From NCBI RefSeq assembly GCF_041821085.1, contig NZ_JBGUAZ010000003.1, positions 496,001 to 560,000 on the forward strand: DNA of 64,000 bases, written 5' to 3'. Numbering within the stretch: the first letter of the stretch is position 1; each line of letters begins with the position of its first letter. This DNA is from Natrinema sp. HArc-T2 (GTDB lineage Archaea > Halobacteriota > Halobacteria > Halobacteriales > Natrialbaceae). Positions 21,645 to 55,158 of this stretch are shown piece after piece. A model generated the notes under the pieces. It had not been told where the DNA came from. It searched no databases and saw nothing but the letters and a program-made list of their open reading frames with translations. The position numbers and the translations under genes are program-made.

Positions 21645-21730
21645 CTATAGTAGCCACTGAAAGGTAATGCACACCCGATCGCACGAGGACTGTGCGATCG
21701 GTGTGTCAATCGTTTCAGTTGTTACTATAG
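21645..21730. repeat. palindromic MITE-like element, family 1, copy 1
   Basis: An 86-base element. Its terminal inverted repeats are CTATAGTAGCCACTGAAA and TTTCAGTTGTTACTATAG, two mismatches between them. An inner stem-forming pair is CACACCCGATCGCAC/GTGCGATCGGTGTG. It lies in the gap between two convergent genes, four bases from the stop of the 21734 gene. A second copy at 60368-60450 shares its layout and most bases. No protein is encoded, so it would be mobilised in trans or act as a bidirectional terminator. Confidence 0.65.
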
Positions 21731-22285: not shown

Positions 22286-22546
22286 TCAGGCTTCGTTCGC
22301 TTCATCCTCGATGGTCGAGACCGTGTGGATTTCGTCGTACCGGACGCTCCTGTCGTCAAGTGGCTGGCCGTCGAGTTCGAGATACACGGGCTCGAAACCA
22401 GTCACGTCTCCGGTGACGACCGTTATTTGATCCATCGTCCGCTCTGCGCTTCGAACCTCGACCGTGTCGCCGATGTCGACGTGGTTCTGGACGAGCAATT
22501 TGGTTCGTTTCGTATCGGCGTCGGGAGGGACAGTCAAAGTAGTCAT
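22286..22546 (-). CDS. small conserved haloarchaeal protein, unknown function
   Basis: 86 residues, starting MTTLTVPPDADTKRTKLLV. The sequence is strand-rich (DIGDTVEVRS, ITVVTGDVTGFEPVYLEL, SVRYDEIHTVSTIEDE) and suggests a small beta barrel, possibly nucleic-acid- or ligand-binding; I recognise no named family. It is divergent from the HD-domain gene, with a 111-base gap that must contain both promoters. A long minus-strand reading upstream of this start is an antisense shadow of the HD gene. Confidence 0.55.
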   Translation of the reverse strand: MTTLTVPPDADTKRTKLLVQNHVDIGDTVEVRSAERTMDQITVVTGDVTGFEPVYLELDGQPLDDRSVRYDEIHTVSTIEDEANEA

Positions 22547-22657
22547 CGGCTGTCGGACCGAAGCGGGGCGACACCCGTAGTCGTTGACCCGGTATTCGCA
22601 ACGCGAGCGGTGTCGTCCGGACGACCGTTTTTGTACGAACCGGTCGAACGAGGAGTA

Positions 22658-23890
22658 ATGAAAGTCATCAAGGACAGCGTCCACGACCACATCCAGGTCG
22701 ACGGCGTCGCGCGTGACCTGCTCGACACGCCCGAAGTACAGCGGCTTCGGCACGTCGGCCAGCTCGGAACCGTCTCTCTCGTGTATCCTTCTGCCAACCA
22801 CACTCGCTTTGAACACAGCCTCGGCGTCTATCACCTCGCCTGCGAGGCCCTCGAGCACCTCGCTATCGAGGGACGACAGGCCGAACGGGTCCACGCCGCC
22901 GCCCTGCTTCACGACGTGGGCCACGGCCCTTTCAGTCACAACCTCGAGTCGCTGACCCACCGTCGCACCGGTCGATATCACGACGACGTCCACGAGTTGC
23001 TCGCGGACGGGGCGGTCGGCGAGGTGTTGCGCGACCACGACCTCGAGCCCGACCGGGTCGCCGAGTTGGTCGCCGGCGAGGGACGCTTCGGGCAGGTGGT
23101 CTCGGGGGAACTCGACGTCGACCGGATGGATTACCTGGTGCGGGATGCCCACCACACGGGCGTTCCCTACGGCACGATCGATCATGGCCGGCTCGTCCGC
23201 GAGCTGACGTTCGTCGACGGCGAACTCGTCCTCGACGAGGGGAACGTCCAGACTGCCGAAAGCCTGCTGGTCGCGCGGGCGCTGATGAACCCGACGGTCT
23301 ACAGTCATAGCGTCGCCCGGATCAGCAAGGCGATGCTCCGACGGGCTGCCGAACGACTGTTGGACGCTCCTGAGACCGATGTCGACGCCGCGACCCTCCA
23401 GCGGATGGACGACCACGACCTGATCGTCGCCCTGCGCTCGTGTGATCGAACGGCGGCGTTCTCGAGGCGACTGGATCACCGCGACCTGTACAAGCGGGCG
23501 GTCTGGGCCGAACTCGACGACGTGCCCGACGAGATCATCGACGCCGATCACGAAACGATCTGCGACCTCGAGCACGAGATCGGCGATCGGGCGGATGTCG
23601 ACCCTACCGACGTCATCCTCGACGTGCCGAGTCGGCCCTCGATGACGGAGTCGACGACGCGCGTGATGGTCAACGGCGAGATCCGACAGCTGGGCCAGCA
23701 GTCGCCGCTGGTCGCGGCGCTGCGGGCGGCCCAGCACTCTCAGTGGCGACTCGGCGTCTACTCGCCGCCCGAGTTGCGGGATCGGGTCGGTCGGGCCGCC
23801 GTCGATGTGCTCAGACTGGACATCGATGGTGCGCTCGTCAGCGAGGTCCGAAACGGGCTGGACGCGACGCTCGATCAGTTCGTCGACTGA
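22658..23890 (+). CDS. HD-domain phosphohydrolase (dNTPase-like)
   Basis: 410 residues. The HD metal site is complete in type: H53 in RFEHSLGVYHL, H85-D86 in LLHDVGHGPFSH, and a downstream D in LDVDRMDYLVRDAHHTG. This is the dNTP triphosphohydrolase/SAMHD1-related branch of HD proteins, in which the metal-bound site hydrolyses dNTPs; which nucleotide is not known. The ATG at 22658 follows a GGAG-like sequence (AGGAGTA, 22651-22657), a good ribosome binding site. A palindromic element begins at its stop codon. Confidence 0.85.
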   Translation: MKVIKDSVHDHIQVDGVARDLLDTPEVQRLRHVGQLGTVSLVYPSANHTRFEHSLGVYHLACEALEHLAIEGRQAERVHAAALLHDVGHGPFSHNLESLTHRRTGRYHDDVHELLADGAVGEVLRDHDLEPDRVAELVAGEGRFGQVVSGELDVDRMDYLVRDAHHTGVPYGTIDHGRLVRELTFVDGELVLDEGNVQTAESLLVARALMNPTVYSHSVARISKAMLRRAAERLLDAPETDVDAATLQRMDDHDLIVALRSCDRTAAFSRRLDHRDLYKRAVWAELDDVPDEIIDADHETICDLEHEIGDRADVDPTDVILDVPSRPSMTESTTRVMVNGEIRQLGQQSPLVAALRAAQHSQWRLGVYSPPELRDRVGRAAVDVLRLDIDGALVSEVRNGLDATLDQFVD

Positions 23891-23969
23891 TACTGTTGGA
23901 CAACAGGATCACACATCGATCGCACGCGAACCGCGATCGGGTGATCACGGACTGTTGTTCGACAGTGTA
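23890..23969. repeat. palindromic element, family 2, copy C (diverged)
   Basis: This element begins at the last base of the HD gene stop. Its termini ATACTGTTGGACAACAG and CTGTTGTTCGACAGTGT form an inverted repeat with three mismatches, and an inner GATCAC...GTGATC pair is also visible. The terminal sequence resembles the ATACTGCCGGACA ends of the elements at 53265-53373 and 53824-53933. At about 80 bases it is shorter. It lies between two plus-strand genes. Confidence 0.45.
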
Positions 23970-24025
23970 CACCTGTCCGTTTCGGGGGTCGAACCGTTGA
24001 AGGCGCTGACGGCGAACTGACGCGT

Positions 24026-52477: not shown

Positions 52478-53212
52478 CTACTCGACCGAAACCGTCTGGA
52501 GATCCTCGGCGAACCGGACGTCGCCGTCGTAATGAGCGGCGATCGACTCGAGCATCTCGTCGTGGTGGCCGTCGGTGTGTGGATAGAGGTGGGTCAGGTA
52601 AACGCGGCCGAGCTCCCGGCCGGCGAGTTCTCGACCGAGTGCGTCCGGTGTCGGATGGTTCGAGACGTCGACATCGTCGGGGAACGAACAGTCGTGGGCG
52701 AAGATCGCCGATCCTTCGGCGAAGTTCGCCAATCCGGCGAAGGCCTCGCTGTCGGCACTGAACGTGAAGAGATCGCCAAAGCGGTAGGCCAGACACGGCA
52801 CCGAGTGGCGCGTCTCGTAGGCCGAGACGTCGAAGCCCGCGACGGTGAACTCGCCGGGGACGACCTCTCGTACCTGGACCTCGAGTTTGTCCTGCATGTA
52901 CTCGTAGACAGAGAGCAAGTCGTCGACGAGCGCCTTGGTGCCCTGCGGGCCGACGATCTCGAGGTGGTCTTCGCCGGCGAGCCAGCGGGCTTTCATCAGC
53001 GGCAGCAGGTCGGCGACGTGGTCTAAGTGGTGGTGTGTCAAGAGGACCGTCGAGACGTTCTCGTAGCCGATGCCGGACTGCTGGAGCCGCTGGAGAACGC
53101 CGGCACCGCAGTCGATCAACAGCGTGCGACCGTCCTCCTGGACGAGAATTCCCGTCTGAAACCGTTCGCCTGTGGGCATGGCACTGCCCGTTCCGAGAAA
53201 GGTGATACGCAT
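52478..53212 (-). CDS. metallo-beta-lactamase fold protein, RNase Z-like
   Basis: 244 residues: MRITFLGTGSAMPTGERFQTG (RNase Z/ElaC N-terminal motif), LLIDCGAGVLQRLQQ, the ligand motif LLTHHHLDHVADLLPLM, FTFSADSEAF, and a late HLYPHTDGH. It resembles tRNase Z but is shorter than the main archaeal RNase Z (about 300 residues) and lacks an obvious exosite arm, so it is probably a relative with an unknown phosphodiester substrate. Confidence 0.8.
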   Translation of the reverse strand: MRITFLGTGSAMPTGERFQTGILVQEDGRTLLIDCGAGVLQRLQQSGIGYENVSTVLLTHHHLDHVADLLPLMKARWLAGEDHLEIVGPQGTKALVDDLLSVYEYMQDKLEVQVREVVPGEFTVAGFDVSAYETRHSVPCLAYRFGDLFTFSADSEAFAGLANFAEGSAIFAHDCSFPDDVDVSNHPTPDALGRELAGRELGRVYLTHLYPHTDGHHDEMLESIAAHYDGDVRFAEDLQTVSVE

Positions 53213-53558
53213 AGGCGGGTGTGGAACCCCTGGCCCGATAAGGGTACCTCTCGAGGACGTCTTCATACTACTGGACAGCAGTCAATACGAAGCCGGTCGC
53301 ATACGTGCGGCCGTCACCTGTGGGGACGGCCGCGAATTCGCGACCGGCTTCACGTCGTTCTGTCCGGCAGTATCAGTCACGCCGAGAGGCCACGCGGCTG
53401 CGACGACCGGCACAAAGATTCAAGCGAGTCGGCAGCCCATCGTGTGGTATCGGTCCGATGGGTTCGTATTCGATTGGCAGCCACCATCAGCACTCGCGGA
53501 GTGACCGCCCGGTCGAGGCATGCAGTAGCCAGCGCCACGCCGGAGGGGAGATGCGGCG
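53213..53558. other. intergenic gap with palindromic element, no gene
   Basis: 346 bases between divergent genes. Element A (53265-53373) covers about a third. The rest (53374-53558) has no credible reading frame with normal haloarchaeal codon use, only a weak hairpin CATCGTGTGG...CCGATGG at about 53438-53461. Confidence 0.4.
53265..53373. repeat. palindromic MITE-like element, family 2, copy A
   Basis: 109 bases. The ends are ATACTACTGGACAG and CTGTCCGGCAGTAT, inverted with two mismatches; inner arms GAAGCCGGTCGC/GCGACCGGCTTC and GCGGCCGTC/GACGGCCGC form a long imperfect hairpin. A second element with the same ends (ATACTGCCGGACA) is 451 bases away at 53824-53933. There is no coding sequence, so any movement would depend on a transposase elsewhere. 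Confidence 0.6.
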
Positions 53559-53819
53559 ATGATCGGTCGACTCGAGACGGCGTTGCCGCCGCGGATCACG
53601 AAAACGACGCTGTACCGGGTCGCCGGCTTGCTCCTCCGGGTGTACGTCGTCAGTCTGGGACTCATCGGCATCTACAGTCTCCTGTGGGTGCTCGAGGTCG
53701 CCGGCATGCTTCCCGGTCGCGTGCTGTCGACGGTCTGGTTCGGCGTCGCCGCGGTCGGACTGCTCTTTCTCGTTCTTTTGATCCCGCTGTACTACCGGGC
53801 TCGAACGACCGAGTGCTAA
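53559..53819 (+). CDS. small two-helix membrane protein between palindromic elements
   Basis: 86 residues with two hydrophobic segments (about 20-45, VAGLLLRVYVVSLGLIGIYSLLWVLEV, and 58-78, VWFGVAAVGLLFLVLLIPLYY). No family recognised. It lies between the two family-2 elements, and the second begins four bases after its stop. The gene might be carried with the elements, but its codon use looks normal for the genome. Confidence 0.5.
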   Translation: MIGRLETALPPRITKTTLYRVAGLLLRVYVVSLGLIGIYSLLWVLEVAGMLPGRVLSTVWFGVAAVGLLFLVLLIPLYYRARTTEC

Positions 53820-53823
53820 CACG

Positions 53824-53933
53824 ATACTGCCGGACAAACGTCAGTAGACACTCGGGCGCGTGACAACGTCTGTCTCCGCTGGTGACAGCGTCTCGAGTGC
53901 GATCACTGTCTGAGCCGCGCTGTCCGGCAGTAT
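53824..53933. repeat. palindromic MITE-like element, family 2, copy B
   Basis: 110 bases. Ends ATACTGCCGGACA (53824-53836) and TGTCCGGCAGTAT (53921-53933) are a perfect 13-base inverted repeat. The interior is less symmetrical than in copy A, with CACTCG near the left and CGAGTG near the right. It separates the small membrane gene from the Nmad3-like gene, so it may provide a terminator or promoter for either. Confidence 0.6.
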
Positions 53934-54017
53934 ACCAGATCGGCCTCGGGAGTAGCCTTGTCCGTACTTTCGGCGGATTTATCGCTGCGCCGTCCCGATT
54001 GGCGTGTACGTCCGAAT

Positions 54018-54812
54018 ATGACAGTCGTTCTCGCCGGCGTCGGTGCCGACAGCACGAACGTCGGCGCGCTGGCACCGCTGTACGATGACGACCGGTTCGA
54101 GTACGTCCCGATCCCAGAGAAAACCCGCGAGACGACGGAATCGGAGACGCTCGGGTCGTGGGAACTGCGAGCCGACGACGGCGTCGCCGCCGATCTCACG
54201 ACCCGGATCACGCCCCAGCCGGTCGGCGACGGGGCCGAGACCGTTACCGGCGATGCCCTCGCGTCGTGGCCGCTTCATCGCGACCCTAACTTCGAGGCGC
54301 TGACCTACGGCGAACATCGGACCAGCGGCTACGTCTCACGGCTGCGCGCGCTCGAGCCCGGCGACGTCGTCGGCTTTTATGCCGGGCTGCGCCGACCGGA
54401 CGGTGATCGCGCCCACCGTTACCTGATCGGCTATTTTACTGTCGACGACGTGGTCGTCGCCAGTCCCGACATGCCTCGAGCCGAGCGCGAAGCGATCCTC
54501 GCAGCACATCCTGACAATGCTCACGCAAAACGTGCACAGGACGGGGACCTCTTCCTCGAGAAACCGGTCGTCATCGTCGATGGACGCGAACCGGGCGGCC
54601 TCTTCGAGCGCGATCCGATCCGCATCAGCGACTACTACGTCGCCGAGGGCAACGAGCGACCACAGTACTACCTGCGCGAGGAGATCGAATCGGCGTGGAA
54701 CGTGCAAGCTGGTGGGTCGAACATGATGTTCAAGCCGGCCTACCGCTGTGACCGCTCGGGGGCCGCGTTTCGGGAACTGGTCGGGATTCCGGGCGAGCGG
54801 CCAGTCGCGTAG
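54018..54812 (+). CDS. Nmad3-like putative nucleotide-modification protein
   Basis: 264 residues. The N-terminal AGVGADSTNVGALAPLYDDDRFEYVPIPEKT resembles, from memory, the start of the Nmad3 domain (nucleotide modification associated domain 3), reported in phage and prokaryotic base-modification clusters. The middle has LEPGDVVGFYAGL and RAHRYLIGYFTVDDVVV, the end GGSNMMFKPAYRCDR. The function is predicted only. No other modification genes adjoin it; it is preceded by a palindromic element. A TTTATC TATA-like box is near 53978. The ATG at 54018 is chosen. Confidence 0.55.
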   Translation: MTVVLAGVGADSTNVGALAPLYDDDRFEYVPIPEKTRETTESETLGSWELRADDGVAADLTTRITPQPVGDGAETVTGDALASWPLHRDPNFEALTYGEHRTSGYVSRLRALEPGDVVGFYAGLRRPDGDRAHRYLIGYFTVDDVVVASPDMPRAEREAILAAHPDNAHAKRAQDGDLFLEKPVVIVDGREPGGLFERDPIRISDYYVAEGNERPQYYLREEIESAWNVQAGGSNMMFKPAYRCDRSGAAFRELVGIPGERPVA

Positions 54813-54819
54813 TCGATGG

Positions 54820-55158
54820 TCACGTTCGTTGGTCGAACTGATCGAGAACCGACTCGAGGTCATCGAAATTCTCACCGGGTGTGATCACGCCATCCTGCTG
54901 CCGATAGTCGACGACATCGTGTGCGTCGAGCCGCGGGAGGTGGTTGTGGACTAACGCGATGGTAGTCGATCGTCGAGTCGTAGGGCCGGCATCGCCCGTC
55001 CCAGAGTTGTGCTCCGACGAGGTGAGCCGACGGCTCAGTTCGTCGGGTGTCGTTCGATCGACCGTGCGAAGGACCGTTATCACGGCCCTGACCGTTCCGC
55101 TCGAGAGGAGGGTATGAACCGTCTCGCTGTCGAGGGTGGTTGACTGTGATCGAGACAC
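54820..55158 (-). CDS. DUF7344-type winged-helix protein
   Basis: 112 residues. The core GTVRAVITVLRTVDRTTPDELSRRL and STTIALVHNHLPRLDAHDVVDYRQQDGVI match the small haloarchaeal DUF7344 winged-helix domain, a probable DNA-binding regulator. It converges with the Nmad3-like gene, seven bases away, and diverges from the acyltransferase gene. Confidence 0.7.
   Translation of the reverse strand: MSRSQSTTLDSETVHTLLSSGTVRAVITVLRTVDRTTPDELSRRLTSSEHNSGTGDAGPTTRRSTTIALVHNHLPRLDAHDVVDYRQQDGVITPGENFDDLESVLDQFDQRT

Follow-up and report, generated by a model that had tools for sequence, protein, structure and literature searches.

The 64,000-nt stretch of Natrinema sp. HArc-T2 DNA analysed here (the window) contains two palindromic elements, A and B, which lie to either side of a small membrane protein gene and are followed by a gene of the Nmad3 family; a third and shorter member of the same palindrome family lies elsewhere in the window. 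The features, with their coordinates and strands, are as follows.

23888..23970, minus strand: short-form member of the A/B family, the third in the window; its left TNA coincides with the stop codon (TGA) of the ORF 22325-23890
52478..53212, minus strand: gene for an MBL-fold (RNase Z-like) metal-dependent hydrolase, the conserved upstream neighbour
53263..53375, plus strand: element A with its target duplication (left TCA 53263-53265, right TCA 53373-53375); the element proper, 53266-53372, is 107 bp, TACTACTGGACA...TGTCCGGCAGTA, and scores 104 bits, with an empty-site comparison in Haloterrigena sp. H1
53559..53819, plus strand: gene for an 86-aa protein predicted to have two membrane segments; a resident gene of Natrinema and other Natrialbaceae
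53824..53933, plus strand: element B, a full-length copy (element proper 53825-53932; 104.3 bits)
54018..54812, plus strand: Nmad3 (PF18754) gene, 264 aa, start ATG at 54018, identified by profile match and with a predicted PUA/EVE-like fold
54820..55158, minus strand: gene for a DUF7344 protein, a neighbour often seen downstream in the genus

The two palindromes had been picked out in a first-pass annotation at 53265-53373 and 53824-53933, and both are confirmed there, with shared 13-nt ends that are perfect or nearly so. Element A is intergenic, between the divergent MBL and membrane genes, and element B starts 5 nt past the stop codon of the membrane gene. The membrane protein gene proposed by the same annotation also holds up, with two hydrophobic segments encoded in the ORF at 53559-53819; this 86-codon ORF has no match among Pfam or NCBIfam families.

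Elements A and B both fold considerably better than dinucleotide-preserving shuffles, with z-scores of -6.6 and -4.2, respectively, as DNA and of -8.1 and -4.0 as RNA. The end ATACTGCCGGACA occurs 45 times in the window genome at no more than one mismatch, as against 2 matches for the reversed control pattern, and pairing of ends yields about 27 elements, 19 of which align in the same orientation almost without gaps. The core of the family is 108 bp long, with 12-bp terminal inverted repeats TACTGYCGGACA enclosing a nested palindromic interior, and the element proper reads TACTGYCGGACA...TGTCCGRCAGTA (108 bp). The short, 80-nt form corresponds to the long form minus exactly the 30-nt apical hairpin. 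Overall, the copies fall into size classes of 107-110, 74-80 and 42-45 bp, with neither a transposase gene nor any coding capacity, and clusters of similar size (107-108, 74-75 and 42-45 bp) are present in Haloterrigena sp. H1. We note that the mini forms of that genome (L359, L360 and L361; 42-45 bp) consist of little more than two joined terminal repeats, with intact ends and perfect TNA duplications. In the inner stems compensatory changes are seen at 9 of 25 pairs, amounting to 46 cells as against 18.6 in shuffled alignments and at most 8 in slid controls, and the covariation score of 0.240 compares with 0.133 for the shuffles and at most 0.079 for the slid controls; the number of pair types shows no excess over the shuffles, and the five covariation measures are not all above them.

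A covariance-model search identified family members in 91 of 125 genomes and 22 of 29 genera of the taxonomic family Natrialbaceae; elsewhere in the order they are far less frequent. The window genome has some 45-50 distinct copies, a number taken from 80 covariance-model rows at E<=1, many of which represent both strands of one copy. Rfam has no match for the palindrome, no A/B-family element was found in phage records, and no description of the family was found in the openly accessible literature; the family is apparently both widespread among haloarchaea and unreported so far. A different palindrome, of 82 bp, lies at 21647-21728 of the window (ATAGTAGCCACTGAAA...TTTCAGTTGTTACTAT); it shares the CGATCGCAC-type core with the A/B family, has other ends, and seems to represent a sister family that differs in its terminal repeats. 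Matches to the 82-bp model recur in the window genome and in another haloarchaeal family, with 13 matches in one such genome (G153).

The repeats had been described at first pass as mobile-looking, and this impression is borne out by target duplications, empty sites and identical dispersed copies. Among the first 55 copies examined, the bases at -1 and +1 are identical in 42, a T is present at -2 in 44, and an A at +2 in 48; this agreement of flanking bases shows that the ATACTG...CAGTAT repeat takes in, with its outer A and T, part of a 3-bp TNA duplication. With the set expanded to 114 distinct copies, an exact 3-bp duplication is seen in 82, all of them TNA, and the -1 and +1 bases agree in 95; eight of nine short forms checked have a perfect duplication. 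The TNA is preferentially preceded by C and followed by G, a CTNAG-like target. For two other copies, relatives retain the empty site with one TNA each (TTA and TAA) and about 90% identity in the flanks, and the orthologous empty site for element A in Haloterrigena sp. H1 has CCG at the position of TCA, and so differs at the TNA itself. Three identical copies occupy unrelated sites in N. hispanicum, with duplications of TGA, TGA and TAA. Element A has kept its duplication (TCA on both sides), and element B, flanked by CGA and TAC with no recognisable duplication, has lost it.

The target duplications, the empty sites and the identical dispersed copies together argue strongly that A and B belong to a single family of non-autonomous DNA transposons (a MITE) of Natrialbaceae and were inserted separately; we regard this reading, with Nmad3 as an unrelated resident gene, as very probably correct. 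Members of the family share with MITEs in general their shortness, lack of coding sequence, terminal inverted repeats, target duplication and dispersed copies, but differ from other MITEs in having a nested palindrome, discrete size classes reaching down to forms of 42-45 bp, and a preference for stop codons, and in having no parent that we could find. Pairs of copies in inverted orientation occur at two other loci. At one (L109, 40-147 and 1502-1609), two 108-bp copies with TCA duplications are separated by about 1.4 kb, in which a long ORF (214-1404) lies, a possible composite. At the other, in Natribaculum breve (L270, 5771-5848 and 7168-7245), two 78-bp elements with TCA flanks bracket Nmad3, which is here apart from its usual downstream neighbours.

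The position of the copies relative to genes was unexpected. For 43 of the 114, the TNA coincides exactly with the TGA or TAA that ends a flanking ORF, counting only ORFs with at least 70 codons and the haloarchaeal GC-position signature. The same flanks contain 236 TNA sites that are such stops, 2464 that are non-coding and 4018 that are coding. Stop placements thus account for 43 of 101 non-coding copies, whereas the corresponding share among TNA sites outside coding sequence is 8.7% (odds ratio 7.7, p 1.5e-18), and when only sites in a CTNAG context are considered the odds ratio is 3.8 (p 3e-5); both p values are too optimistic, as copies from related genomes were dropped only if the 25 nt on their left were identical. 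Two prior tests of stop placement that used other definitions pointed in the same direction. The short copy in the window is an example, sitting at 23890 on the stop of its neighbouring ORF, and neither A nor B is on a stop codon. Because the duplication rebuilds the stop codon, an insertion of this kind leaves the gene whole and provides it with a 3' untranslated region that is a strong hairpin. The novelty here is the MITE family itself, and above all this exact placement on stop codons.

These properties suggest how the family might spread. A DDE transposase acting in trans, probably IS5/IS1031-like, would insert the element into TNA trinucleotides; these, as seen above, are very often gene stop codons (TGA or TAA), which the duplication regenerates. 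Copies at stop codons would be tolerated, and perhaps kept, as the hairpin can presumably end or protect the transcript. An IS5/IS1031-like enzyme is proposed since the TNA duplication fits: a 3-bp TNA target duplication is a trait of the IS1031 group of the IS5 family, although the A/B family, unlike IS1031, has no transposase of its own. None of the loci searched contained an IS with A/B-family ends. The ends of thirty DDE_Tnp_1 loci from five element-rich genomes do not match those of the family, the PF13586 loci of nine genomes include no autonomous transposon with family ends, and the listed terminal inverted repeats of one element-rich genome include no pair with IS-like spacing. Pairs of ends 0.5-3.5 kb apart in several genomes proved to be only chance matches or two neighbouring MITEs, three further pairs from haloarchaea, flanked by TNA and spaced 0.6-3.5 kb, have no recognised transposase inside, and the matches of the bare end in IMG/VR are due to chance. 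A bolder proposal, that integration is itself aimed at gene ends with the stop codon as the preferred TNA target, such that a portable transcript-end module has spread through the taxonomic family, strikes us as rather doubtful; if it were true, each insertion would leave the gene whole and supply it with a new 3' end in the form of a hairpin.

Haloarchaea are rich in transposase-free repeats whose mobilisation has been called enigmatic (PMC3119063), and the A/B family adds to these a defined TNA duplication, N. hispanicum as a host with recent activity, and stop codons as a rule of placement, which together make both the transposase and any effect on transcript ends directly testable. The closest of the described repeats are SMR-A and SMR-B of Haloquadratum walsbyi, which are about 110 bp long (80 bp in one case) and have terminal repeats unrelated to those of known transposons (PMC3119063). 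Compared by their description, SMRs and the A/B family are both haloarchaeal, similar in length and bounded by prominent terminal repeats. The palindromes could be small mobile repeats of the SMR-A/B type, and the likeness in length, terminal repeats and high copy number, in the lack of a known parent transposon and in a mobilisation described as unexplained, would fit (PMC3119063). SMRs, however, are defined as lacking a target duplication, SMR-A inserting into PATEs or IS605 elements (PMC3119063). The TNA duplication in 82 of 114 copies and the stop-codon position in 43 of 114 set the A/B family apart from such duplication-free repeats, and we consider an assignment to the SMRs unlikely.

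The conservation of the hairpin with compensatory changes, and the strong enrichment of copies directly at gene ends, would also be expected of immobile host elements, either regulatory or structural RNAs or DNA sites such as terminators, attenuators or protein-binding sites. That the palindromes are nothing but such elements is quite improbable given the empty sites, the duplications and the identical copies at unrelated sites, all of which speak for mobility, and given that Rfam offers no match; some copies of the MITE may nonetheless have been domesticated.

The relationship of the repeats to Nmad3 was a separate concern, since the first-pass annotation saw in the locus an isolated chromosomal Nmad3 gene next to mobile-looking repeats, suggestive of an undescribed function in modification or anti-modification. 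The identification of the gene itself is secure: in the HMM search that the annotation called for, the ORF at 54018-54812 matches Pfam Nmad3 (PF18754) over 249 residues with 126.8 bits (E 1.4e-36), well above the curated cut-off of 27. Its distribution, on the other hand, is not that of a foreign gene. Nmad3 is present in 116 of 125 genomes and 28 of 29 genera of the taxonomic family, nearly always as a single copy, and class-wide in 220 of 292 Halobacteria and 64 of 77 genera. The gene order MBL - membrane gene - Nmad3 - (DUF7344) - acyltransferase-like - NDH is common to Natrinema relatives, mostly with no palindrome, and parts of it are found in other Natrialbaceae as well. Two observations had been named in advance as counting against the proposed link, the lack of an Nmad3 match and synteny conserved without the repeats; the match stands, and synteny is indeed conserved where the repeats are missing. 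The picture of an isolated Nmad3 tied to its repeats is thus not borne out.

A mobile or foreign Nmad3 cassette that arrived with the repeats and serves DNA modification or anti-modification has some circumstantial appeal, as Nmad3 adjoins mobile repeats here and has an Nmad2 partner outside the haloarchaea, and as in one viral contig Nmad3 is adjacent to a gene that encodes a ParB-DNA methylase fusion. Pairs of adjacent Nmad2 and Nmad3 genes are found in Methanophagales, a gammaproteobacterium and an acidobacterium (L319, L321 and L322). The haloarchaeal gene belongs to the same Pfam family, but is a lone gene with neither Nmad2 nor a modification enzyme at the window locus, where none of the latter was found near Nmad3. 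Nmad2 (PF18753) is absent from the window genome and from 143 of 145 Halobacteria (present in 2), and PADLOC reports no match. Together with the single-copy distribution and the neighbours kept in the absence of repeats, this leaves a cassette of this kind highly improbable and a repeat-linked modification function unsupported: the locus consists of a core gene, Nmad3, next to which lie two copies of the MITE, and is not a modification cassette. We note that the viral contig (L325), in which a distant Nmad3 relative of 31% identity lies beside the ParB-N6/N4 DNA methylase fusion gene, represents the phage-type setting to which the annotation referred. The phage record collection yields no Nmad3 match; PHROG 34025, whose function is not annotated, nevertheless matches the window Nmad3 (E 3e-145), and was probably built from a predicted provirus region.

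Two further readings of the palindromes have next to nothing to recommend them. As short, dispersed, extragenic palindromes with imperfect hairpins they resemble REP or REPIN sequences moved by a RAYT (TnpA-REP) transposase, but IS200-type or RAYT movement is not known to duplicate its target, and long terminal inverted repeats are not known from REPs, such that the exact TNA duplications and perfect ends observed render this origin barely credible. Equally hard to credit is a single composite transposon of A, B and the membrane gene that imported the latter, for despite the like elements on both sides and the absence of the gene from the N. hispanicum/N. limicola clade, the gene is found at that position with neither element present in Haloterrigena sp. 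H1 and in many Natrinema and other Natrialbaceae, and the outer flanks, TCA and TAC, share no duplication.

With Nmad3 regarded as a resident gene, its predicted structure offers some indication of its role. A confident model built from a 38-sequence alignment has a pLDDT of 92.7 and a pTM of 0.91. Foldseek reports nothing below E 0.001 for this model (best E 0.03), the first 19 rows being EVE, ASCH, THYN1, McrB-N and related proteins, and a second structure aligner gives MJECL36, PH1033, ZmASCH, VcaM4I, THYN1, YTH domains and McrB-N at Z of about 5 to 7; the best match (Z 7.1, rmsd 4.8 over 134 residues) is a weak score. In the list of PDB folds the top rows are nearly all of the PUA superfamily, with DrmAB as the one exception among the best 50. 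By sequence, no match to Nmad3 was found in the PDB, and among Pfam profiles up to E 1 only Nmad3 is reported, with no match to an EVE or PUA-like family. The predicted fold of Nmad3 appears similar to those of the EVE, ASCH, YTH and McrB-N proteins of the PUA superfamily, but the protein differs from them in the absence of a Pfam match, in its weak structural scores, in being a larger protein of 264 residues, and in having invariant residues of its own (D11, PIP 31-33, H87, D89, N167 and H169).

Several proteins of the EVE, ASCH, YTH and McrB-N types read modified bases or bind RNA, and from these fold neighbours we infer that Nmad3 may be a PUA-like nucleic-acid reader. The predicted fold and the invariant residues give a somewhat less than even chance that it is specifically a reader of modified bases. 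Such a protein would read a modified base, or act on nucleic acid, in a housekeeping capacity shared across haloarchaea, and a role with modified bases that is independent of the repeats is plausible on the strength of the model. Nmad3 thereby ceases to be a curiosity of phage modification and becomes a gene that most Halobacteria carry in single copy, its predicted fold resembling that of base readers, and is a good target in the search for unrecognised nucleic-acid modification in haloarchaea. In one Natrinema species (L063, G053:C1:472484-473229) Nmad3 is split into two frames, apparently by a frameshift.
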